DNA of 64,000 bases from Acidihalobacter prosperus (lineage in GTDB: Bacteria > Pseudomonadota > Gammaproteobacteria > DSM-5130 > Acidihalobacteraceae): contig NZ_JQSG02000001.1 in assembly GCF_000754095.2 (NCBI RefSeq), positions 186,001 to 250,000 of the forward strand. The letters are read 5' to 3'. The translations under genes were made by a program, and so were the position numbers. The notes under the pieces were generated by a model. It worked only from the letters and a program-made list of their open reading frames with translations. It ran no database searches and was not told the DNA's origin. Positions 36,085 through 45,651 of the stretch are shown here, one piece after another (position 1 is the first letter of the stretch; every line of letters starts with the position of its first letter).

Positions 36085-36161
36085 GCCCCGGTGGCACAGA
36101 TGGATAGCGCGGCCCCCTCCTAAGGGGCAGGTCAGAGGTTCGAATCCTCTCCGGGGCGCCA
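36085..36161 (+). tRNA. tRNA-Arg (anticodon CCT)
   Basis: A full cloverleaf: acceptor GCCCCGG pairs with CCGGGGC, anticodon stem GCCCC/GGGGC encloses the loop CTCCTAA with anticodon CCT, and the T arm is AGAGG-TTCGAAT-CCTCT. The CCA end is encoded (36159-36161). It reads the codon AGG, which should be rare at this base composition. No integrase or direct repeat is visible beside it. Confidence 0.97.
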
Positions 36162-36237: not shown

Positions 36238-36915
36238 TCATGGCCCTTCCTCTCTGCCCTGCCGGAAATAGGCGATCAACGCGGCTATCTGGATTTCGTC
36301 CAGGGGATTCTGCAGCGATATCCTCGGGGTACCGTGTATGCCGGTGATCATGCGTGCCGCGAATTCGGCCGGGCGCATCGTTTTGGCCCAGTCGAACAGG
36401 TCAGGCGCCGGCAATTCGGCCGTGGGATTGCGATAACGATGGCAGGCGGCGCAGCGTTGGTCGTACAGCCGCCTCGCCCAGCGGATTTGTCCACGCGTGG
36501 CGCCGGCGCCGTCCATGTCGTGCAGGTACAGCGGATAGGCGTGTATCAGGTGCTCCAGCTGGTGAGTGAATGCGGTCCAGTGTCCTTCGATGAACGCCGC
36601 GCGCAGTGCCGTCGCGCCGTCGACCGCCATCGTTTCCGCAGAGGCATCCTCTTGGAGATACCGGCGCGCCTGCAGGGGCAGCTGATTCAGATCGCCCATG
36701 AGTTTCTGGTGCAGGCCGCGCCGCTGCGGCGTTTGCGTCTTGGCTCGGCGCAGTCGCACGAAATCGCCCCGGATGACGAGGAGCACGGCGGCGAAATCGC
36801 GCGCCCGCGCGCCCGCGCGCATCGCATCCGCCTGGGCAGCGCCCGGGAGGGGCGCCGCCAGACAGATCGCCAACAGCAGTCGCCAGGCGCAGACCCGGAA
36901 CGGGTGGTAACGCAT
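36238..36915 (-). CDS. Periplasmic monoheme cytochrome c
   Basis: 225 residues with a signal peptide (1-29) and one heme c site, CAACH at 155-159, in a C-terminal class I-like domain (about 145-225); a Met in EFAARMITGIHG may be the sixth ligand. The N-terminal 120 residues are helical and not recognised. It is the last gene of the sulfur operon, 16 bp after the rhodanese, and is the only electron carrier there, so it may accept electrons from sulfur chemistry in the periplasm. The ribosome site is weak. Confidence 0.8.
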   Translation of the reverse strand: MRYHPFRVCAWRLLLAICLAAPLPGAAQADAMRAGARARDFAAVLLVIRGDFVRLRRAKTQTPQRRGLHQKLMGDLNQLPLQARRYLQEDASAETMAVDGATALRAAFIEGHWTAFTHQLEHLIHAYPLYLHDMDGAGATRGQIRWARRLYDQRCAACHRYRNPTAELPAPDLFDWAKTMRPAEFAARMITGIHGTPRISLQNPLDEIQIAALIAYFRQGREEGP

Positions 36916-36931
36916 GCGAACTTGAGGTGCG

Positions 36932-37876
36932 TCAGTGGGCCTGCGACAACTTGATCTTGGTTTCCACCGGCAGCGCGGGATTGCTTGTCCACTGTGCCAT
37001 CGAGCCGTCGTAGACCTTGGCCTGCTTGTTGTGGAGCAGTTCGTAACTCACGAACCAACCCAGCGAGGCCCAGTGACCGGTATTGCAGAAATTGATCTGC
37101 TCGCCCGAGGTGCCGACGCCGGCTTCCTTGTAGAGCGCCTTGAGTTGCGCAATCGAGCGGAATTCGCCGCCGTCGTTGACGGTCAGCCAGCCTTGCGGGA
37201 GATTGGCGGCGCCGGGGATGGTGCCGGCGCGCTTGTCCATGGGTGGGCGGGTGACGCCGAGATATTGCGACATGGGGCGGTTGTCGACAAGCTGGACCTT
37301 GCCGGATTTCATCGCCTGCTCGACCTCCGCCTCACTGGCCAGCAACGCATGATCGAGGTGACCGTTGAATTGCGCCGTCTTGGCCTTTTGCGTCCCGCGT
37401 TTGACCGGATACTTGCCTTCCACGTAGGCCTTGTAGCCTCCATCCATGATGGATACGTTGTTGTCGCCCAGCACCTTGAAGGTCCAGAACACGCGTGTCG
37501 CGCTGCCCATGTCGAGGGCATTGGTCCCGGCCGAATAGATCACCACATGCGTATGGTTGTCGATGCCGAGTCCGCCGATCAGCTTGTCCAGCTGGCCGAC
37601 CGGGGGCAGCATGCCGGGGATGCCTTTTTCCTTGACGCGCCAACCTGCCTTGGCGTAATCGCTGTATACGGCGCAAGGCACGTGACCGCTGAGATAGGTG
37701 AACTGGTTGCCGCCTCCACCTACGTGACTGCGGACGTCCACGACCACGACGCCTGGTTTGCACGAATGGGCGGCCACCCAGGCAGGGCTGACCAGGGGCG
37801 GAGGTTCCTGAGCGGCACAGGCGACGCCCGTTATGGCCGTCAGCATGGACCCGATGACAATGGTTTTAATGTGCAT
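36932..37876 (-). CDS. Periplasmic sulfurtransferase, tandem rhodanese
   Basis: 314 residues with a signal peptide (1-21) and two rhodanese domains: an inactive N-terminal domain (about 28-160) and a C-terminal domain with the active Cys264 in the loop CNTGHWAS. This is the thiosulfate/mercaptopyruvate sulfurtransferase layout. It should move sulfane sulfur between donors such as thiosulfate and thiol acceptors in the periplasm. GGAGAG stands six bases before the ATG. It is the only rhodanese in the operon with an intact active cysteine. Confidence 0.88.
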   Translation of the reverse strand: MHIKTIVIGSMLTAITGVACAAQEPPPLVSPAWVAAHSCKPGVVVVDVRSHVGGGGNQFTYLSGHVPCAVYSDYAKAGWRVKEKGIPGMLPPVGQLDKLIGGLGIDNHTHVVIYSAGTNALDMGSATRVFWTFKVLGDNNVSIMDGGYKAYVEGKYPVKRGTQKAKTAQFNGHLDHALLASEAEVEQAMKSGKVQLVDNRPMSQYLGVTRPPMDKRAGTIPGAANLPQGWLTVNDGGEFRSIAQLKALYKEAGVGTSGEQINFCNTGHWASLGWFVSYELLHNKQAKVYDGSMAQWTSNPALPVETKIKLSQAH

Positions 37877-37900
37877 GTGCGACTCTCCAGCGCTGGTGGT

Positions 37901-38083
37901 TCAGACCGTGAACACACGGTCCGATGTCAGGATTTCGTCCAGCAGACGATCCCATTGTTTTTCGTTCCGCGTTTCCCGCAGATCGTTGCGGCGTACGTTA
38001 TGCGGGCATGCGGTGTCGGTCAGGGCCTGCAGCAAGATGTCCCGCTCGGGAAACAGGCCGGTTTCGAGAATGAGGACGTTCAT
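37901..38083 (-). CDS. Small conserved-looking protein of unknown function
   Basis: 60 residues starting MNVLILETG, probably cytoplasmic, with one cysteine (TACPHN) and a charged C-terminal helix. I do not recognise the family. The beginning looks like a first beta strand of a DsrE-like or Rossmann fold, which is only a guess. GGAG lies seven bases before the ATG, and the gene is 24-25 bp from both neighbours, so it is a genuine operon member and not a stray frame. Confidence 0.6.
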   Translation of the reverse strand: MNVLILETGLFPERDILLQALTDTACPHNVRRNDLRETRNEKQWDRLLDEILTSDRVFTV

Positions 38084-38108
38084 CCAGGGGGCTCCAGAGA
38101 CGATTGGG

Positions 38109-38381
38109 TCAAAGGTTGAGCACGGCATCCGCCGAAAGGCACATCGCGCAGAGTTCGGCGGGCGGCACGTACGGTAATTCGGAGGTCTGTAGGGTGCTCC
38201 GGGGTTCGATTTCGGCCAGTTCGAGCAGATCGGCCTGGGCACGGTTTTCCAGGGTGTCCTCAACCTCGCGTCCCATGAAGACGAGCCTGACCGTATGCCC
38301 GAAAATGGTCAGGCCTGCGGCGACGCGCATGGCTTCGGTCTGATCATGGCGCGCAAGAAGAACGAGGGTCTTGGTGTCCAT
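38109..38381 (-). CDS. DsrE/TusD-like small protein with C-terminal CxxC
   Basis: 90 residues. The N-terminus (TKTLVLLARHDQTEAMRVAAGL) followed by HTVRLVFMG reads like the first strand-helix-strand of the DsrE/DsrF fold, used by proteins that pass persulfide sulfur. Near the end is ELCAMCLSADAVL with Cys78 and Cys81, the likely sulfur-carrying site. The ATG at 38381 follows GGAGG; an in-frame ATG 12 bases earlier is itself part of the ribosome site. It probably works with the 96-residue neighbour. Confidence 0.65.
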   Translation of the reverse strand: MDTKTLVLLARHDQTEAMRVAAGLTIFGHTVRLVFMGREVEDTLENRAQADLLELAEIEPRSTLQTSELPYVPPAELCAMCLSADAVLNL

Positions 38382-38398
38382 GGCATCCTCCATCGAGG

Positions 38399-38689
38399 TC
38401 AGAGGCTGATGACCTTGTAGGTCCGGGCGATCATGGCGCTGTGATCGGTTTGGCTGCCGAGCTCGATAGGGCAGGATTCCCCGTCGCCGTGGCGTTGCCA
38501 GGAATGCTCGCAGACCACCGCCCGGGCAGCGCCCGAGAGCAAGGCGGCGCATTCGGCGTCGCCGAGTATCGCGGCGCCCTCGCCGGTGAAAAACGCACCC
38601 CATTCGATGCCGCGTCGACGCGTCGCGCGCAGCAGGGGGGGCAGCAGCGCTCGCGCGTCACGCGATGAAACCACGTACATCAATTCCAT
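38399..38689 (-). CDS. DsrE-like small protein
   Basis: 96 residues beginning MELMYVVSSRD, then a helix and the segment RGIEWGAFFTGEGA, and later ARAVVCEHSW with Cys60, where DsrE-fold proteins often hold their active cysteine. A second cysteine follows in ESCPIELG. Assignment to the DsrE fold is by pattern only. AGGAAGG precedes the ATG. The start overlaps the end of the membrane-anchored rhodanese by 10 bases. Confidence 0.6.
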   Translation of the reverse strand: MELMYVVSSRDARALLPPLLRATRRRGIEWGAFFTGEGAAILGDAECAALLSGAARAVVCEHSWQRHGDGESCPIELGSQTDHSAMIARTYKVISL

Positions 38690-39669
38690 GAGACCTTCCT
38701 TGTCGTGAGATAAAGGGCGGTGTAGGCGACGGCGCCACCCGCGACGCCCGCCAGCAGGCCGAGCGGCAGCCCGATCGAGGACGACGAAAGGGCCCTGTCG
38801 GAGCGGCTGGCGGCGACGTCGGTCGGATGACGGGGTCGCGCGACATAGGTCTCGTCCGAAACCGGCAGCGCCGTATGGGCCGCCCAGGCGCGCCAGCCGC
38901 CGGGGTAGACCTTGACTGCCGCTCCGAGGCCGGCGTGTAGCATGGCGAAATAGGCGATGCCGCCCATGGGATCTTCGGCATACGCAATGGCGCCGGCGAG
39001 CGTGGTGGCGGACGGCCGTGTGGCCTGCGGTGTCGAGAGCCCGTCCGCCGGTAGCGAGAGCGCGCCTGGTATATGCCCGCCGCGATAGGCGTCGATACGG
39101 ATGCCCAGATAGGCATCTCGGCCCCGGCCGTCGACCAGCAGCGGCGGGTGCGGTCGGGTCAACGCCCGCGCCAGTTCCGCGCGCCAGACGATCAGGCGCG
39201 CACGCGGCCGGCCCTGGTAGATCGGATCGGCCAGCAGTGAGCGCGGACGTCCCGGCGTTTCGGCGAGGCCTGCCGCGTGCAGGGCGGCTTGCAGTGGGCG
39301 CTGCAGAATCAGTACGCGCCGCTGTCCCGCGAGATAGAGGATTCCGGCAACGAAATCCCGCCGTTGCGCGCGCTCGCCGGCGACCACGAGCGTTTCACGA
39401 CCGGAGAGGCCGAGCGTCCCGAGCAGCCATGCGATCTGACGGAATGACGGCAGTCTTCCATGCGGCCCGAGCAGGTCGCCTGCCGGCAGACAGCGGGCGC
39501 CCGGCACCGATGCGCGTTCGCAATCGGCCAGTGGCCTGACATCGAGCACGACGGTGCCGGGGCGATCCAGCCAATGCGGATCGCCGGTGTAGGCGAGGTT
39601 ATTGGTGGCGCCGGCCGTGCCGGGGGCGGCCAGCAGCAGGCAGCAGGCGATGACAGCGGCACGCGACAT
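38680..39669 (-). CDS. Membrane-anchored tandem rhodanese lacking the active cysteine
   Basis: 329 residues: signal peptide (1-21), two rhodanese-like domains (about 27-130 and 155-270), and a C-terminal transmembrane helix (about 296-318) with a short basic cytoplasmic end. The second domain keeps the rhodanese frame (LLVDGRGRDAYLGI, GHIPGALSLP, VYPGGWRAW), but where the active-site Cys loop should stand it reads AYFAMLHAGLG, without Cys. The first domain has VVAGERAQRRD there, also without Cys. It is probably a binding or scaffold subunit at the periplasmic face of the membrane. It lies 4 bp after the GGC-ending small protein. Confidence 0.75.
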   Translation of the reverse strand: MSRAAVIACCLLLAAPGTAGATNNLAYTGDPHWLDRPGTVVLDVRPLADCERASVPGARCLPAGDLLGPHGRLPSFRQIAWLLGTLGLSGRETLVVAGERAQRRDFVAGILYLAGQRRVLILQRPLQAALHAAGLAETPGRPRSLLADPIYQGRPRARLIVWRAELARALTRPHPPLLVDGRGRDAYLGIRIDAYRGGHIPGALSLPADGLSTPQATRPSATTLAGAIAYAEDPMGGIAYFAMLHAGLGAAVKVYPGGWRAWAAHTALPVSDETYVARPRHPTDVAASRSDRALSSSSIGLPLGLLAGVAGGAVAYTALYLTTRKVSWN

Positions 39670-39673
39670 GGAT

Positions 39674-39955
39674 TCAGCAACCGCCGAACTGTACCGGCGC
39701 GGCGGCCGTGGATGGCACGCCGGCTACCGCTTTGGGGGGGTGCTCGATGTAGTATTCCATCAGCTGTGTCACGGTCATCTCGCCATGGCGATGTCCGACC
39801 CGGATGGGCTGGTCGAAGGCGTCGAGTGGTTGCGGTATGGCCGCCTGCTGCAGCGTATCCGGCGATACCGAGGCGAGCGGCGTCAATCCGATCGACAGGC
39901 CCAGGCTGGCAAGCAGAGTGGCGGTGCAGAAGATCAATATCCTGGCGTTGCTCAT
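39674..39955 (-). CDS. Small membrane-anchored protein with C-terminal Gly-Gly-Cys
   Basis: 93 residues. An N-terminal hydrophobic segment (about 5-27) anchors it, with the rest probably periplasmic. The chain ends in QFGGC, so the last residue is a cysteine on a flexible Gly-Gly arm after a Pro/Ala-rich linker. SoxY, the sulfur carrier of the Sox system, ends in GGCGG, which makes a carrier role attractive. No Ig-like SoxY domain is present. GGGAG lies seven bases before the ATG. The middle part (DQPIRV...TVTQLMEYY) weakly resembles the end of the 69-residue neighbour. Confidence 0.65.
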   Translation of the reverse strand: MSNARILIFCTATLLASLGLSIGLTPLASVSPDTLQQAAIPQPLDAFDQPIRVGHRHGEMTVTQLMEYYIEHPPKAVAGVPSTAAAPVQFGGC

Positions 39956-39974
39956 GGTCGTGCTCCCGGGGGCA

Positions 39975-40076
39975 TCATTTGCCGAAAGGGTCCTGGGTGA
40001 AGGCAACCCACATGATGTAGAAGGCGACGCAGAACATGCCGATCTGGATCAGGGTCGACAGGGTCATGGGGTTCAT
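39975..40076 (-). CDS. Tiny single-helix membrane protein
   Basis: 33 residues, nearly all one transmembrane helix (about 6-26), ending TQDPFGK. The ATG at 40076 overlaps the stop of the preceding gene as ATGA. An in-frame ATG at 40067 gives 30 residues and is better spaced from GGAGA, so the true start may be that one. Its operon position and the tight spacing to both neighbours argue that it is translated. Small proteins of this kind often stabilise membrane complexes; the partner is unknown. Confidence 0.55.
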   Translation of the reverse strand: MNPMTLSTLIQIGMFCVAFYIMWVAFTQDPFGK

Positions 40077-40282
40077 TCTCCAAGGTAGTGGCGCACCAGC
40101 GTGTTGACGTCTATGGGCTGGCCGCTGACCGGATCGAGCGCCTTCGGCGTGTAATAGGGCACGCCGTAGCGCGTAGCCTTGAGGTAGGGCGGCGCGGCCG
40201 TGGTGATGTAGCCCAGCCCGCCGATCGTCAGCACGGCGGCGAGCGCCGCCAGCGCCGACATCTGCCATTGCCCGCGTGTCAT
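40073..40282 (-). CDS. Small membrane protein, 69 residues
   Basis: One transmembrane helix at about 8-27, then a 40-residue exposed tail rich in Tyr and Pro (YLKATRYGVPYYTPKALDP) that ends GQPIDVNTLVRHYLGE. I do not recognise the family. AGGAG precedes the ATG at nine bases. It starts 1 bp after the tusA stop and its own stop overlaps the next tiny gene, so it is firmly part of the operon. Confidence 0.6.
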   Translation of the reverse strand: MTRGQWQMSALAALAAVLTIGGLGYITTAAPPYLKATRYGVPYYTPKALDPVSGQPIDVNTLVRHYLGE

Positions 40283-40283
40283 C

Positions 40284-40589
40284 TCAGTTTCTCCTGATCA
40301 CGACCTGCCAGCCCCGTTCGCCCTTGGGCGATCCGAGCAGGGTGCCGCCGAGTTCGGGCAGCATGGCGAGCACGGCCTCGTACGAGGTGGGGTTGTCGAT
40401 CTTCACGCCGACGATCTGTCCGCTCGCTGCCTTGCCGAGCGCCTTTTTGGTCATCAGTTGTGGGCGGGGGCAGGAATCGCCCAGGCAATCCACCCATTCG
40501 TCCACGTTCACTGAACGGCCGTCGTCAAGTGCCACTTGCGACGCGGTTGCGGGTGTCGCCGTTTGTTTTTTTCCACCGAACAATCCCAT
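40284..40589 (-). CDS. TusA-family sulfur carrier protein
   Basis: 101 residues. The TusA signature CPRP is at 40-43 (Cys40 carries persulfide sulfur), with an additional Cys35, and an N-terminal extension of about 25 residues rich in Lys, Thr and Ala. It follows the YeeE/YedE halves, like TsuB (YeeD) next to the thiosulfate transporter TsuA (YeeE) in E. coli, so it probably takes sulfur from the transporter on the cytoplasmic side. AGGAG stands six bases before the ATG. The 53-bp gap before it can form a short CGCCG/CGGCG hairpin. Confidence 0.9.
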   Translation of the reverse strand: MGLFGGKKQTATPATASQVALDDGRSVNVDEWVDCLGDSCPRPQLMTKKALGKAASGQIVGVKIDNPTSYEAVLAMLPELGGTLLGSPKGERGWQVVIRRN

Positions 40590-40642
40590 GGCTTTCTCCT
40601 GGTTGTGTGTCGCCGTGCGTATGCGGCGCGTAGCGTGTGTGT

Positions 40643-41356
40643 TCAGCCCTTGCCGGCCGCCGCGAGCGCGTCATCGTCCGCGTCGCCGGTGGTTTCGGAG
40701 GGCGAGGCCTGCTCGACGGCATTCACTGCGGCGATCGCGGGCGCGTTCCGGGCAGCAGTTTCGCGGGCTGCGGCCATTGCGCGTTCCTTGCGGACGATGG
40801 CGTAGTAGATGCCGCCGAGCACCAGGCTCTGCAGCAGGCCGAAGAAAATGGCCGGGATGCCGGTCTGCAGTTGCAGGGTCTGGGCATTGGCGAAGCCCAG
40901 CTGCAGGCTGCTCAGGTTGACGCTGCCGGACATGGTCGCCGGTGCCGGCGGCCACCAGGTGGCGGACCAGAACAGCGAGAACAGGAACATCCCCACGAAG
41001 GTGAACAGCAGTGCCCAGATCGCGCCGACGTTGCCTTCGCCGGACTTGACCCAGGTGGAGACCGTGCAGGCGCCGGCCAGCACCATGCCGATGCCGAACA
41101 GGAACAGGCCGATGACCTGGTTGAGACCGACCTCGAAATGCATGGGATGGCCGCCGCCGACGCTGATGAAGGCGGTGAAGCCGATGGTCAGGATCATCAT
41201 GCACACCAGCAGGGCCTTGGTGTTGCGGTAGCTCTTGAACAGCATGGCATCGCGCAGGGCAGCGGTGTTGCAGAAGCGCGAGCGCTGAACCAGAAAGCCG
41301 ACGACGGAGCCGAACATGAAGGCGGCAAGGCATTGCGTAAGCGATGAAAGTTCCAT
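40643..41356 (-). CDS. YeeE/YedE transporter, C-terminal half
   Basis: 237 residues with about five transmembrane helices. The family motifs are RSRFCNTAALRD (Cys29) and GMVLAGACTVSTW (Cys97); such cysteines line the thiosulfate path in YeeE. A hydrophilic Ala/Glu-rich tail of about 40 residues follows the last helix. It is 3 bp after the N-terminal half, and the two together match one full YeeE/YedE chain. The substrate, thiosulfate or another sulfane, is inferred from the family and neighbours. Confidence 0.88.
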   Translation of the reverse strand: MELSSLTQCLAAFMFGSVVGFLVQRSRFCNTAALRDAMLFKSYRNTKALLVCMMILTIGFTAFISVGGGHPMHFEVGLNQVIGLFLFGIGMVLAGACTVSTWVKSGEGNVGAIWALLFTFVGMFLFSLFWSATWWPPAPATMSGSVNLSSLQLGFANAQTLQLQTGIPAIFFGLLQSLVLGGIYYAIVRKERAMAAARETAARNAPAIAAVNAVEQASPSETTGDADDDALAAAGKG

Positions 41357-41359
41357 GGC

Positions 41360-41851
41360 TCAGGCCTCCATCACGCGCTTGTAGATCAGCGATCCGACCC
41401 ATGCGCCGACGATGATGCCGCTCACCGAGAGGTAGCCGCCGAGGTTCATTTCCGGGGTGAGCCCGAAAAAGGTGCTGACGTTGCAGACGAAGGCCAGACG
41501 GATGCCGATCCCCATCAGCAGGCCGCCGATGGTGATCATGATCCATTCGCTGAGGTGCCGCGGCACCCGCCAGTAGAATTCGCGGCTGCCGACCGCGGCC
41601 ACGATGGCGCCGAAGAACATGCCGAGGCTGATGTAGATCTTCCAGTAATACGGCGTGGGCTCGAAGGCGTATTGCCAGAACGGGATGCGGTAGATCTGAT
41701 CGCCCATGAACAGCTTGGCGACCAGGCCGGTGATCATGGTTTCGCCGCCGCCCACGGTCCAGGCGCCGACGACCAGAAACAGGAATACGTCGAGCAGCGC
41801 GATGATGCTCAGCGCGACGATCGGATCGATGGTTTTCTTGAACAGTTGCAT
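41360..41851 (-). CDS. YeeE/YedE transporter, N-terminal half
   Basis: 163 residues with about four transmembrane helices and the motif LAFVCNVSTFFG (Cys123), which corresponds to the first Cys-containing repeat of YeeE/YedE. The ATG at 41851 has GGGAGAGG upstream; the longer frame of 17 codons lies across the predicted transcription start. It is the first gene of the 12-gene sulfur operon and sits about 29 bases after the predicted sigma-54 start site. A paired half-size gene follows immediately. Confidence 0.87.
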   Translation of the reverse strand: MQLFKKTIDPIVALSIIALLDVFLFLVVGAWTVGGGETMITGLVAKLFMGDQIYRIPFWQYAFEPTPYYWKIYISLGMFFGAIVAAVGSREFYWRVPRHLSEWIMITIGGLLMGIGIRLAFVCNVSTFFGLTPEMNLGGYLSVSGIIVGAWVGSLIYKRVMEA

Positions 41852-41890: not shown

Positions 41891-41906
41891 AGCAAGGGGC
41901 ATGCCA
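41891..41906 (-). promoter_or_regulatory. Sigma-54 promoter (-24/-12) of the sulfur operon
   Basis: On the minus strand TGGCATG-CCCC-TTGCT matches the -24/-12 consensus TGGCACG-N4-TTGCT except for one C-to-T. The invariant GG and GC are present at the right distance. The expected start is near 41880, about 29 bases before the first gene. The element lies directly downstream of a gene for a sigma-54 activator. Confidence 0.8.
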
Positions 41907-41969: not shown

Positions 41970-42007
41970 GTCTCGTTTTGAGACAATCGCCTGTCCCGAA
42001 ACGAGAC
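41970..42007 (-). promoter_or_regulatory. Two inverted-repeat activator sites (UAS)
   Basis: Copy 1 is GTCTCGTTTTGAGAC (41970-41984). Copy 2, on the other strand, is GTCTCGTTTCGGGAC (41993-42007). They share 13 of 15 bases and the form GTCYC-N5-GRGAC. Their centres are 23 bp apart, about two helical turns, and lie about 97 and 120 bp upstream of the predicted start: the usual place for NtrC-type activators. Confidence 0.75.
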
Positions 42008-42015
42008 AGCGGTCG

Positions 42016-43350
42016 TCAATCGAGGCCCAGCTTGCGGCGCAGCGTCGAACGGCTGATGCCGAGCCGCCTGGCCGCAGCCATCTGGTTGCCGTCACAGGAT
42101 TCCAGCACCCGACGGATGTGCGCCAGCTCGACTTCGGACAGGGGCTGAAGCTCGCCGCCAGCCGAGCCGCCAGGGGGCGCAACGACCGGGAGGTTGTCGA
42201 ACAGTAGGGATTCGGCATCCAGGGTTTCGCTGTCGCTCAGCGCGAAGCTGCGTTCGAGCACGTTGCGCAGCTGGCGCACGTTGCCGGGCCAGTCGTGCGC
42301 GCTGAGCCGGCGCCGTGCCTGGGCGTTGACCGCGAGCGCGTCACGGCCGGTCTTGTGTCGCAGGCGCTCGACGAAATGGTCAACCAGGGGCGCGATATCG
42401 TCGCGCCGCTCGCGCAGCGGCGGTATCCGCACCGGCATCACGTTGAGGCGAAACAGAAGATCCGAGCGGAAACTGCCGGCGTTTACCATTTCGCCGAGGT
42501 CGCGGTTGGTGGCGGTGATCACACGGACATCGACCCGGGTACTGCGCGAACCGCCTACGGGGCGGACTTCGCCCTCCTGCAGTACGCGCAGCAGCTTCGC
42601 CTGCAGACGCGGACTGACGTCGCCGACCTCGTCCAGAAACAGCGTGCCGCGGTCGGCTTGCCCGAACAGCCCCTCGTGCTGGGCCACGGCGCCGGTGAAG
42701 GCGCCTTTCACGTGACCGAACAGCTCGGAATCCAGCAGATCCTCCGGCAGGGTGGCGCAGTTGACGGCGACGAAGGGCGCGGCGGCGCGGCGGCTGGTGC
42801 GGTGAATGGCGCGTGCGAGCACTTCCTTGCCGACCCCGGTTTCGCCGGTGATCAGTACGGGCACGTCCTGATCCCTGATGCGCTGGATCAGATCGGCGAT
42901 GCCGCGCATCGCAGGGCTCTTGGCGATCAGGGCGGCATCGGGTCGGCCGTCGAGCTGCGCGCGCAGCCGGCTGACCTCCTCGCCGAGCTGTTTGCGTTCG
43001 AGCACCTTGACCACGCGCAGCAGCAGTTCGTCTGGATTCACCGGTTTGGTCAGATAGTCGTAGGCGCCGAGCCGCATGGCATCCACCGCATTTTCGATCG
43101 AGCCGAAGGCGGTCATCACGATGCTTTGCGTGTCGTCGCCGCGTTCGCGCAGCAGTTCGACGATTTCCAGGCCATTGCCGTCACCCAGACGCAGGTCGGT
43201 GATCACGAGGTCCATGCGATGACGATCGAGATGCGCGGAAGCCTCCGCGACCGAACCCGCCTCGATCACCTGGTGCCCGCGAGCCTTGAGCATCAGGCCC
43301 AGGCTGGCGCGCACGGCGTATTCGTCGTCGACGATCAGGATGTTGGCCAC
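42016..43350 (-). CDS. Sigma-54-dependent response regulator, NtrC family
   Basis: 444 residues. Receiver domain (1-120) with phospho-acceptor Asp52, AAA+ domain (about 140-375) with GETGVGKE Walker A, GAFTGA at 216-221 for contact with sigma-54, and a Fis-type helix-turn-helix at the end (NQMAAARRLGISRSTLRRKL). All parts needed for activation are intact. It follows the kinase gene by 3 bp, and its stop is only 8 bp from the two activator sites, so it is the obvious regulator of the sulfur operon downstream. Sigma-54 two-component systems are known to control sox genes in Acidithiobacillus caldus. Confidence 0.93.
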   Translation of the reverse strand: MANILIVDDEYAVRASLGLMLKARGHQVIEAGSVAEASAHLDRHRMDLVITDLRLGDGNGLEIVELLRERGDDTQSIVMTAFGSIENAVDAMRLGAYDYLTKPVNPDELLLRVVKVLERKQLGEEVSRLRAQLDGRPDAALIAKSPAMRGIADLIQRIRDQDVPVLITGETGVGKEVLARAIHRTSRRAAAPFVAVNCATLPEDLLDSELFGHVKGAFTGAVAQHEGLFGQADRGTLFLDEVGDVSPRLQAKLLRVLQEGEVRPVGGSRSTRVDVRVITATNRDLGEMVNAGSFRSDLLFRLNVMPVRIPPLRERRDDIAPLVDHFVERLRHKTGRDALAVNAQARRRLSAHDWPGNVRQLRNVLERSFALSDSETLDAESLLFDNLPVVAPPGGSAGGELQPLSEVELAHIRRVLESCDGNQMAAARRLGISRSTLRRKLGLD

Positions 43351-43353
43351 GGT

Positions 43354-44784
43354 TCAGCGGGTCTCCAGTTCGAAGGCGACCTCGGTGCCCGCGCCGGGCT
43401 GGCTGGCGATGTCGAGGACGCTGGCGTGTTGCATGAGTATGCGCTGCACGATGGCGAGACCCAGGCCGGTTCCGCCCTTGCGGCCGGAGACGAATGGCCG
43501 CCGGACCTTTCCCAGCAGTTCCGGCGCGATGCCCTCGCCGCTGTCGCGGATCGCCACGCGCAAGCGGCACGGCGAACGCGTTGCCAGGCTGACGGTGAGA
43601 CGGCCGTGTCCGCCCATCGCCTGAACGGCATTGCGCATCAGATTCCACAATACCTGACGCATCTGGTCCTGGTCGAAGACCGCGGTGCGCTGCGGGACGT
43701 CGAGCCGACGCACGATCTCGATGCCGTCGGCCACGTCGGGATCTTCCGCAAACAGAGTGATGACCTCATCGATCAGGTCGACCAGATCGTGCCGTTCGAG
43801 CTGGGACTCGCGCACGCGCGAGAAGTCGAGGAAGCTTTCGAGGATGCGTTGCAGGCGGCCGGCCTCACCGTTGATGATGCGCCGTACCTTGTTGCGGTCG
43901 TCGGCGTCCAGTTCCGGTTCGCCGATCAGGCTGACGGAGTTGATGACCGCCGCCAGCGGATTGCGGATTTCATGTGCGATGCTGGCCGCCAGTTCGCCGA
44001 CGCAGGCCAGCCGCTCGGCGTCCATGCGTTTTTCGTGTTCGCGCACCACGGCCTGCGAGGTCTCGCGCAGCGAGTCCAACATGCCGTTGAAGGCCTTGGC
44101 GAGCATGCCGACTTCATCGCGGCTGCGTATTTCCACGCGCGCGCCCAGATCGCCGCCGGCGATGCGCCGCACCGCGGTGCCCAGGCGGTGCAGATTGCGC
44201 GTGATGGCGTAGGACAGCAGCCAGGCGGCGCCGCCGCCGATGAGCAACGCGGCGAGTATGAACAGCAGGCCTTCGTTGCGGATGCGCTGCAGTTCGCGGT
44301 GCATGCCGGCAGTGGACAGGCCGAGGTAGACGGTGCCGACCACGCGTCCGGCAACGCGGACCGGTTCCTCCAGGCGCATGAGACGGGCACGCGGCCGGGC
44401 GATGTCGGGCCGCACGGCCGCCAGCGGGCGTCCGACGTCGCCGCCCGAGGTGCTTGCCAGCACTTCGCCGCGTTCGTCGACGATCAGGCCGTAGGCCACG
44501 TCGGGCTGCTGGCGCACACGCCCGGTCACTTCCGCGAGCGAGGCCAGATCCTCCGACAGCAGCGCGTTGGTGCTGGCCACCGCCATCAGGTTCACCAGCG
44601 AATGGCCGCGGCTCTCCAGTTCCGTACGAATGCCGGCGGATTGTTCGTTGACGGCATCCCAGATGAAACCGCCCATCAGGATCACGTGCACCAGCGACAC
44701 GGAGAGGATCAGGCGCATGCGCAGGGTCGACCACCAGGGGATGCGTTCGCTGCTGCGCAGCGTCCAGCCGGCGGCGGGTTTCAT
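43354..44784 (-). CDS. Membrane sensor histidine kinase
   Basis: 476 residues. Two transmembrane helices (about 24-44 and 172-194) enclose a periplasmic domain of about 125 residues, followed by HAMP (about 194-245), a dimerisation helix with phospho-acceptor His271 (AHEIRNPL) and an HATPase domain (NLMRNAVQAM; DSGEGI; GTGLGLAIV). It lies between the PhnD-like gene (3 bp) and its response regulator (3 bp). The periplasmic part probably contacts the binding protein. Confidence 0.93.
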   Translation of the reverse strand: MKPAAGWTLRSSERIPWWSTLRMRLILSVSLVHVILMGGFIWDAVNEQSAGIRTELESRGHSLVNLMAVASTNALLSEDLASLAEVTGRVRQQPDVAYGLIVDERGEVLASTSGGDVGRPLAAVRPDIARPRARLMRLEEPVRVAGRVVGTVYLGLSTAGMHRELQRIRNEGLLFILAALLIGGGAAWLLSYAITRNLHRLGTAVRRIAGGDLGARVEIRSRDEVGMLAKAFNGMLDSLRETSQAVVREHEKRMDAERLACVGELAASIAHEIRNPLAAVINSVSLIGEPELDADDRNKVRRIINGEAGRLQRILESFLDFSRVRESQLERHDLVDLIDEVITLFAEDPDVADGIEIVRRLDVPQRTAVFDQDQMRQVLWNLMRNAVQAMGGHGRLTVSLATRSPCRLRVAIRDSGEGIAPELLGKVRRPFVSGRKGGTGLGLAIVQRILMQHASVLDIASQPGAGTEVAFELETR

Positions 44785-44787
44785 GGG

Positions 44788-45651
44788 CTATTTTACCTCC
44801 CGGTATTCGGCGTTGCGGGCGCGGATGAAGCCTTGCGGAAAGCCGAGTTTGCTAAGGATCGCGCGATCTCGCGGGTGTGTGTGCAGGGCCAGCAGGCTGG
44901 CGGTGATGTCCTGACGCAGCGCGGCAGGGAGGCTGTCGAGCACGGCGATGGGCATCTGTGGCTGCGGCGGCGTTTCGGCAATCACGCGCAGGTTGCGGCG
45001 TATCGCGGGCGGCATCGAACGCAGCGACGGCCACCAGGTGCCGGCCACGCCCACCAGCCCCGAATTCAGCGCCATGAGCACGGAGTCCTGCGAGCCGAAA
45101 TAGCGGATACGGCAGCAATGCGTTACGTCCACGCCGTGCGTGCGCAGATAGCCGCGGGTCATCACCGTGGCGGCGTAGGCGCGAGGGTCGGGAAAACCGA
45201 CGATCAGACCTTTGTGCCACTGCGCCGGGTCGATGCCGTGCAGCGGGCTGTCCCTGCGCACCACGAGGATGCCGGTGAACGGCTCTCCCAACACCTTCGC
45301 CACGGCGTCGTAGCCGGCCTTCTCGGCTTGAGTGAACAGCAGCGGGTTGAGGTAGACGATGTCGTAGTCGTGATGCATCACGCGCTGCATGAAGATCGTG
45401 AAACTGGGCGCGGTGACGAATTGCACCGGGCGATGCAGCGAGCGTTGCAGGTATTCGACCAGCGGCATGAACATGTCGGCCAGTTTGGTGGGGCTTTGCA
45501 GCGGCAGTACGCCGAAGCGCAGCCACCGACCATCCGTCTGAGGCGGGTTGGCCGGTTGCGCATGGCCGGGCGATATCCACACCAACAGCAGGAGCAGGCA
45601 ATGGGCGGCAAGCCTCGCGCGCGCGGTGCCGGGGTTCGGATTCGATGACAT
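44788..45651 (-). CDS. PhnD/transferrin-type periplasmic binding protein
   Basis: 287 residues with a signal peptide (1-31) and a two-lobed binding fold of the phosphate/phosphonate/oxyanion PhnD family: LRFGVLPLQSPTKLADMFMPLVEYL at its start and IVGFPDPRAYAATVM. There is no ABC permease or ATPase nearby. It is the first gene of a kinase operon, so it is more likely a ligand-sensing partner of the kinase than a transporter part. A sulfur oxyanion ligand is inferred from the regulated genes. A Cys-Cys pair (THCCRIRYF) is unusual for the family. Confidence 0.82.
   Translation of the reverse strand: MSSNPNPGTARARLAAHCLLLLLVWISPGHAQPANPPQTDGRWLRFGVLPLQSPTKLADMFMPLVEYLQRSLHRPVQFVTAPSFTIFMQRVMHHDYDIVYLNPLLFTQAEKAGYDAVAKVLGEPFTGILVVRRDSPLHGIDPAQWHKGLIVGFPDPRAYAATVMTRGYLRTHGVDVTHCCRIRYFGSQDSVLMALNSGLVGVAGTWWPSLRSMPPAIRRNLRVIAETPPQPQMPIAVLDSLPAALRQDITASLLALHTHPRDRAILSKLGFPQGFIRARNAEYREVK

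Follow-up and report, generated by a model that had tools for sequence, protein, structure and literature searches.

The window analysed here is a stretch of 64,000 nucleotides from Acidihalobacter prosperus (contig NZ_JQSG02000001.1, positions 186,001 to 250,000), and the subject of this study is a string of twelve open reading frames (ORFs) within it, all on the minus strand and running from position 41851 down to 36238 (window coordinates checked). In gene order it encodes the C-terminal and then the N-terminal half of a YeeE transporter, TusA, three membrane proteins of 69, 33 and 93 residues, an anchored rhodanese-like protein, a DsrE-like and a second DsrE-like protein, a 60-residue protein, a secreted rhodanese and a cytochrome c (Table 1). 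The ORFs are separated by gaps of 1-53 bp or overlap shortly, by 4 bp between the 69- and 33-residue genes and by 10 bp between the genes for the anchored rhodanese and DsrE, and a search for sigma-70 promoters inside the operon found none. An earlier interpretation made from the letters alone (the sequence-only reading) had described this layout of twelve closely packed minus-strand genes, and every ORF was recovered as it gave them. Its naming of a split YeeE, TusA, two rhodaneses and a cytochrome c agrees with Pfam and NCBIfam, which match two Sulf_transp halves, TusA, two rhodanese proteins and the cytochrome, and it was also right that no Sox, Dsr or Hdr catalytic gene lies inside the operon.

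Table 1. Genes of the operon and neighbouring features (positions in the window)
Feature	Position	Strand	Basis
YeeE C-terminal half, PmpA-like	41360..41851	-	Sulf_transp positions 171-310; C123 84/84
YeeE N-terminal half, PmpB-like	40643..41356	-	Sulf_transp positions 1-161; aligns to TsuA 6leo; C29 and C97 86/86
TusA-like sulfurtransferase with N-terminal extension	40284..40589	-	PF01206; C40 in CPxP motif, 86/86
69-residue single-helix membrane protein, small tail, probably periplasmic	40073..40282	-	hydrophobic segment 8-26; present in 82 relatives
33-residue single-helix membrane protein	39975..40076	-	hydrophobic segment 8-26
93-residue membrane-anchored protein, probably periplasmic, C-terminal -FGGC; proposed sulfur-carrier arm	39674..39955	-	hydrophobic segment 6-24; Gly-Cys end 83/83
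Tandem pseudo-rhodanese: signal peptide, two rhodanese domains, C-terminal membrane anchor	38680..39669	-	PF00581; hydrophobic segments 4-22, 303-321
DsrE of type II-like DsrEFH	38399..38689	-	hhalign 100% to YTD-type DsrE; C60 74/74
DsrF-like subunit	38109..38381	-	hhalign 100% to YTD-type middle subunit
60-residue DsrH-like subunit	37901..38083	-	hhalign 99.7% to YTD-type third subunit
Secreted tandem rhodanese, active-site loop CNTGHW (C264)	36932..37876	-	PF00581; C264 73/73
Secreted monohaem cytochrome c, N-terminal helical domain	36238..36915	-	PF13442; CxxCH 71/71
Predicted sigma-54 (-24/-12) promoter TGGCATGCCCCTTGC	41892..41906	-	sole match in window, not significant alone
Two palindromes, GTCTCAAAACGAGAC and GTCTCGTTTCGGGAC, candidate regulator binding sites	41970..42007	.	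sequence; both also in sister genome L009
Sigma-54-dependent response regulator	42016..43350	-	Response_reg, Sigma54_activat, HTH_8
Membrane histidine kinase: single Cache sensor domain, HAMP, HisKA	43354..44784	-	Pfam; conserved neighbour
Periplasmic PhnD-family (Phosphonate-bd) binding protein, first gene of sensor cassette	44788..45651	-	Pfam PF12974 E 2.6e-49; adjoins operon in many relatives
tRNA-Arg (CCT)	36085-36161	+	close to operon 3' end

The twelve-gene string is a real conserved unit, far beyond chance, because 50 of the 56 loci covering the whole span are complete and 55 of the 56 keep strictly the same order and strand, across several classes; the linkage supposed by the sequence-only reading thus holds in other genomes. 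Genome representatives were scanned with the transporter half (alignment A1), the best 80 of the loci encoding a relative were kept, and further carrier genomes were added by genome search, the loci being annotated by profiles and picked by YeeE or DsrE, not by the other operon genes. A first scan with the anchored rhodanese-like protein as query gave no match, this query being too divergent for that tool. Genes that went undetected in incomplete whole-span loci were mostly the shortest ones, and in one locus (L033) the 69- and 33-residue proteins are fused in frame as a single ORF. Carriers belong to the Alpha-, Beta- and Gammaproteobacteria, with a single SAR324 bacterium besides, and include Sedimenticola selenatireducens, Thiobacillus, Sulfuriferula multivorans, Rhodobium orientis, Maritimibacter, Thiorhodococcus mannitoliphagus and Ca. 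Thioglobus; Thiobacillus, Sedimenticola, Sulfuriferula and Thiorhodococcus are genera known as sulfur oxidisers. In a concatenated tree of six proteins (midpoint root; support values not read) the window genome and its sister genome group together, beside L033 and L073, among the Gammaproteobacteria. The order of the window genome is represented by five genomes in the genome set, and in G001, which belongs to the same genus, the operon genes were not found, yet SoxB and an HdrB pair are present; the operon is therefore accessory. Clustering of the neighbours revealed no constant flanking enzyme, the flanks consisting of alternative regulators and local genes.

The operon's small soluble proteins, three in number, were compared with the YTD-like loci L030, L032, L035 and L037 of Gammaproteobacteria. 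Each matches its counterpart among the E, F and H subunits there, and against canonical type I DsrE, DsrF and DsrH the hhalign probabilities were all below 17%. By profile comparison, the two DsrE-like proteins and the 60-residue protein are the DsrE, DsrF and DsrH of a type II-like DsrEFH relay; the sequence-only reading, which called two of them DsrE-like and gave the 60-residue protein no family, missed that all three belong to a known kind, the 60-residue protein being DsrH-like by hhalign. The last three genes of the YTD cluster were recently identified as DsrEFH type II, with sulfur passing from TusA to DsrE to DsrC in vitro (PMC13293266; see also PMC13047784). The operon resembles that cluster (PMC13293266, PMC13047784, PMC12998232) in its YeeE transporter, its TusA, its dsrE-F-H genes in order, the profile match of all three subunits and the conserved DsrE cysteine, and it has together the yeeE/yedE, tusA and dsrE-F-H genes that mark YTD or type II loci. 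The transport and cytoplasmic genes of the operon make up the already known YeeE-TusA-DsrEFH type II ("YTD") relay, here with a YeeE encoded by two genes. C60 of DsrE, kept in all sequences (Table 1), was equated with Cys67 of the cable-bacterium protein indirectly, via the alignment to YTD-like loci. An AlphaFold2 model of DsrE (mean predicted local distance difference test, pLDDT, 97.5) had DsrE/DsrF-like proteins as its best PDB matches in a fold search (2qs7 and 3pnx, also 2pd2; template modelling score, TM, 0.66-0.73; none reaching E 0.001), and a profile search against PDB sequences gave nothing credible. Among the gammaproteobacterial YTD-like clusters L030, L032 and L035, full-length YeeE and TusA occur in L030 and L032, and in L030 TusA is separated from DsrEFH by an amine-oxidase/desaturase-like gene and a B12 radical SAM gene.

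The operon differs from the YTD cluster in that its YeeE consists of two permuted genes and that six more genes form a mostly periplasmic half. YTD type II genes are also reported mostly with reductive DsrAB, whereas the main dsr loci read in operon carriers have dsrABEFHCMK with type I DsrEFH, a gene order typical of oxidisers. Type II DsrEFH has been counted in 985 genomes, with DsrAB reductive in 73.9% and oxidative in 4.7%, or about 46 genomes (PMC13293266); since the operon genomes in which we found dsrA number at least 65 against the roughly 46 reported, the operon group may lie largely outside that count. The YeeE-TusA-DsrEFH core in common with YTD would also fit a part in sulfur disproportionation, as proposed for that cluster (PMC9751629, PMC12998232); this we hold to be very unlikely for the operon, as its carriers include sulfur-oxidiser genera with rDsr operons and disproportionation has been argued against even for the YTD cluster (PMC13293266).

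The transporter genes stand in permuted order, and all three transport cysteines of TsuA have counterparts in them, C29 and C97 in the N-terminal half and C123 in the C-terminal half, which together with the Sulf_transp domain places the pair in the YeeE/YedE family. Two-gene YeeE halves are also found in PmpA/PmpB, which have about 130 residues and one conserved cysteine each, whereas the operon halves have 163 and 237 residues and all three transport cysteines (PMC11582611). From the periplasm to the cytoplasm the series of invariant cysteines is unbroken (C29, C97 and C123 of YeeE, C40 of TusA and C60 of DsrE), and every operon protein expected to carry sulfur has a conserved cysteine. The halves scored 53.1 and 61 bits against the TsuA family cut-off of 400, which is harsh since each gene is half a protein. 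Homology of YeeE and TusA would suit an assimilatory uptake of thiosulfate of the TsuA/TsuB kind, an explanation to which we give very little credit: besides these scores far under the family cut-offs, the operon tracks Dsr genes, and a DsrEFH-like relay, a cytochrome c and rhodaneses would be superfluous for assimilation. The best NCBIfam matches of the halves and TusA are YedE/FdhT and YedF, all far under cut-off, and would point to selenium uptake of the YedE/YedF type; this was rejected as scarcely conceivable, selD being absent from 9 of 22 carriers, two of which are the window genome and its sister. The window genome has another, full-length YeeE gene (L001:1501-2523, contig C2), possibly SoxT.

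In the periplasmic half, the secreted rhodanese retains the active-site loop cysteine, as expected of a catalytic rhodanese, and has TST/MST relatives in PDB. The anchored rhodanese is related to it (hhalign 98.6%) and has the loop cysteine in none of 80 sequences, and so lacks the mark of a catalytic enzyme; it is indeed membrane-anchored, as had been proposed, yet not cysteine-less, two other cysteines (C50 and C60) being present in 80 of 80. At the divergent locus L036 the rhodanese in its position still has the loop cysteine, which points to the anchored protein being a pseudo-enzyme with an active ancestor. This shorter relative of the operon (L036:5850-10099) comprises a split YeeE and TusA, small proteins (one with a -TGC end), a single rhodanese that has the loop cysteine, DsrE and DsrF, and is a possible evolutionary intermediate.

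The 93-residue protein has one N-terminal hydrophobic segment followed by a short, probably periplasmic part, and ends in Gly-Cys in every relative (FGGC in 67 and FQGC in 8 of 83); it had no consistent Pfam match and no Pfam family covers it. We infer that it carries sulfur on this C-terminal cysteine. SoxYZ-SoxXA offers a parallel, having a periplasmic carrier with its cysteine on a glycine-rich C-terminus that works beside a c-type cytochrome. The C-terminal cysteine of the 93-residue protein recalls the sulfur-carrying GGCGG tail of SoxY, but the two have no relationship in sequence (40 members gave no SoxY match). The 93-residue protein is also membrane-anchored and ends on the cysteine itself, the terminus being mostly -GGC or -QGC, not GGCGG, and the operon is without SoxZ, SoxA and SoxB. 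A likely SoxY ending in GGCGG is encoded elsewhere in the window genome (L165:16031-16498). The 69-residue protein had no family match above cut-off, and homology between it and the 93-residue protein was not supported (19%). The cytochrome c has a single CxxCH motif and an AlphaFold2 model of pLDDT 89.7, in which a fold search matched only the haem domain and gave no credible match for the N-terminal helical domain.

What lies downstream of the relay was examined in the carrier genomes. With the window's genus left aside, the carriers tested first (eight Gammaproteobacteria and thirteen others) all had dsrA, as did 45 of 50 carriers of a second set, making 65 of 70 operon genomes once one duplicate was removed (some matches being fragments in incomplete genomes). 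In the sampled class, dsrA occurs in 116 of 369 genomes against 8 of 9 operon genomes (hypergeometric P 5e-4). In the window genome and its sister dsrA was not found, though both have the operon; each has an sHdr locus in which genes for two HdrB-type subunits lie about 3 kb from one another, and that of the window genome also encodes HdrC/HdrA-like proteins and a rhodanese, with two ORFs that we take to be lipoate-binding-protein-like (LbpA-like) and one that we take to be DsrE3-like, going by the ORFs and the usual sHdr layout. Since the window lineage carries the operon with sHdr and without dsrA, the module is probably tied to a cytoplasmic route of sulfur oxidation rather than to Dsr chemistry itself. 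SoxB is present in the window genome, so that this genome has sHdr and Sox in place of the Dsr pathway found elsewhere in nearly all carriers, a context that the sequence-only reading had missed. SoxB had no match in G059 or in the incomplete genome G211 and only below-cut-off matches in G381 and G382; Sox is frequent, not universal, and was rejected as an obligatory partner. The metagenome-assembled genome of L073, a neighbour in the tree, had no detected dsrA. Apart from the main dsr operon, further copies of dsrA or dsrAB were seen at L156, L157, L159, L161 and L163 (G159, Sedimenticola, Thiobacillus and G059), with only dsrA detected in L157, L159 and L161.

Taken together, the protein families and gene context make it likely that the operon is a trans-membrane import and relay system for sulfane sulfur that feeds cytoplasmic oxidation, by rDsr in most carriers and by sHdr in the window genome. 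Sulfur trafficking across periplasm, membrane and cytoplasm, as first proposed, is supported; of the idea of an undescribed uptake or oxidation complex, import and relay fits better than an oxidation complex. The string appears undescribed to the extent that no description of it, nor of its periplasmic half (secreted rhodanese, anchored pseudo-rhodanese, three single-helix proteins and cytochrome c), was found in the literature searched, which covered few subscription journals and preprints and from which papers on YTD, SoxT and PmpAB turned up. We infer the import direction, the cargo, the order of transfer, the formation of a complex and the carrier role of the 93-residue protein; for the direction, the reason is that the nearest relatives, TsuA/TsuB and SoxT1, have been shown or proposed to import (PMC11582611). 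The SoxT1A module of Hyphomicrobium is similar in having a YeeE-family importer that feeds cytoplasmic sulfur oxidation and a small single-helix membrane protein nearby, and differs in having a full-length SoxT with ties to sox/shdr genes and no reported set of DsrEFH type II, secreted rhodanese and cytochrome (PMC11582611). Export of cytoplasmic sulfur, for example to periplasmic stores or for detoxification, would be served by periplasmic carriers able to receive it, and appears unlikely to us given that known YeeE-family members with a TusA-like partner import (TsuA/TsuB, SoxT1; PMC11582611) and that the secreted rhodanese, its active cysteine intact, would suit the donor side.

In the import system as we propose it, C264 of the secreted rhodanese would draw sulfane sulfur from a donor in the periplasm, for instance thiosulfate, polysulfide or some other persulfide, and pass it to the C-terminal cysteine of the 93-residue protein, which would act as a swinging carrier arm, while the pseudo-rhodanese with the 69- and 33-residue helices may form a docking platform on the transporter and the cytochrome c may accept electrons should loading or release involve an oxidation. 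The YeeE halves would hand the sulfur along their three conserved cysteines to C40 of TusA inside, from which it could go to C60 of DsrE in the DsrEFH-like complex and on to DsrC or to the sHdr/LbpA system. A bolder version, which we advance tentatively and with more doubt than confidence, is that this is a class of energy-metabolism importer not recognised before, in which an electron-linked loading station in the periplasm (cytochrome c, active rhodanese and pseudo-rhodanese) would charge the C-terminal cysteine of the 93-residue protein, and this protein would place sulfane sulfur directly in the split YeeE channel for passage to TusA-DsrEFH, all in one membrane complex joining periplasmic sulfur chemistry to Dsr or sHdr.

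Several observations count against the import and relay system. The outward direction would be compatible with the sequences as well. The cytochrome c has no strongly conserved Met or His as sixth haem ligand, the best Met being present in 35 of 71 sequences. Five operon genomes, all of them metagenome-assembled, are without detected dsrA, and the operon was seen (DsrE search) in just 8 of the 116 dsrA-positive Gammaproteobacteria sampled; because most of these show none, the Dsr pathway does not in general depend on it. Carriers moreover already own type I DsrEFH beside dsrAB, which leaves the second DsrEFH unexplained.

The functional unit reaches upstream of the twelve genes and includes the sigma-54 promoter and the three-gene sensor/regulator set (42016-45651). 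Close to where the first gene begins, the motif TGGCRN6TTGC occurs in 20 of the 21 loci with the sigma-54 regulator versus 3 of the 61 without (shuffled background 0.2% per region). The two palindromes are likely upstream binding sites of the sigma-54 regulator, judging from their sequence and their presence in the sister genome, and their pattern by itself is no rarer than chance within the window. The neighbouring PhnD-type sensor, kinase and sigma-54 regulator would turn on expression of the importer. One could instead suppose that the operon imports small amounts of sulfur for a regulator to sense, as proposed for SoxT1B (PMC11582611), and the sensor kinase/sigma-54 cassette indeed lies near the operon in 21 of the 82 loci examined. 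We think such a signalling role quite improbable: the regulator matches the operon's own promoter and so probably controls the operon rather than reads its output, the other 61 loci show no cassette (some because the contig ends), and twelve genes with a cytochrome and a DsrEFH-like relay would be excessive for a signal.

Little is understood of the way in which sulfane sulfur reaches the cytoplasm to be oxidised (PMC11582611), and the import system proposed here would be a concrete and widespread candidate for this step, with 340 loci encoding a transporter-half relative in one collection of genome representatives and with cultured carriers that include Sulfuriferula, Sedimenticola, Thiorhodococcus, Rhodobium and Rhodobacterales relatives. 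It widens the range of type II-like DsrEFH beyond sulfate reducers to sulfur oxidisers already equipped with type I, and in the window's lineage the module occurs without Dsr, presumably serving sHdr. If the proposal is true, the question of sulfur entry becomes open to deletion tests of single genes.

Around the operon, a small divergent protein is encoded directly 5' of it in 22 loci (component 3; for example L082:6944-7444), in many carriers without the sigma-54 cassette, and by eye it is probably a ribbon-helix-helix regulator. On the 3' side in the window, the next minus-strand gene encodes an SH3-domain protein.

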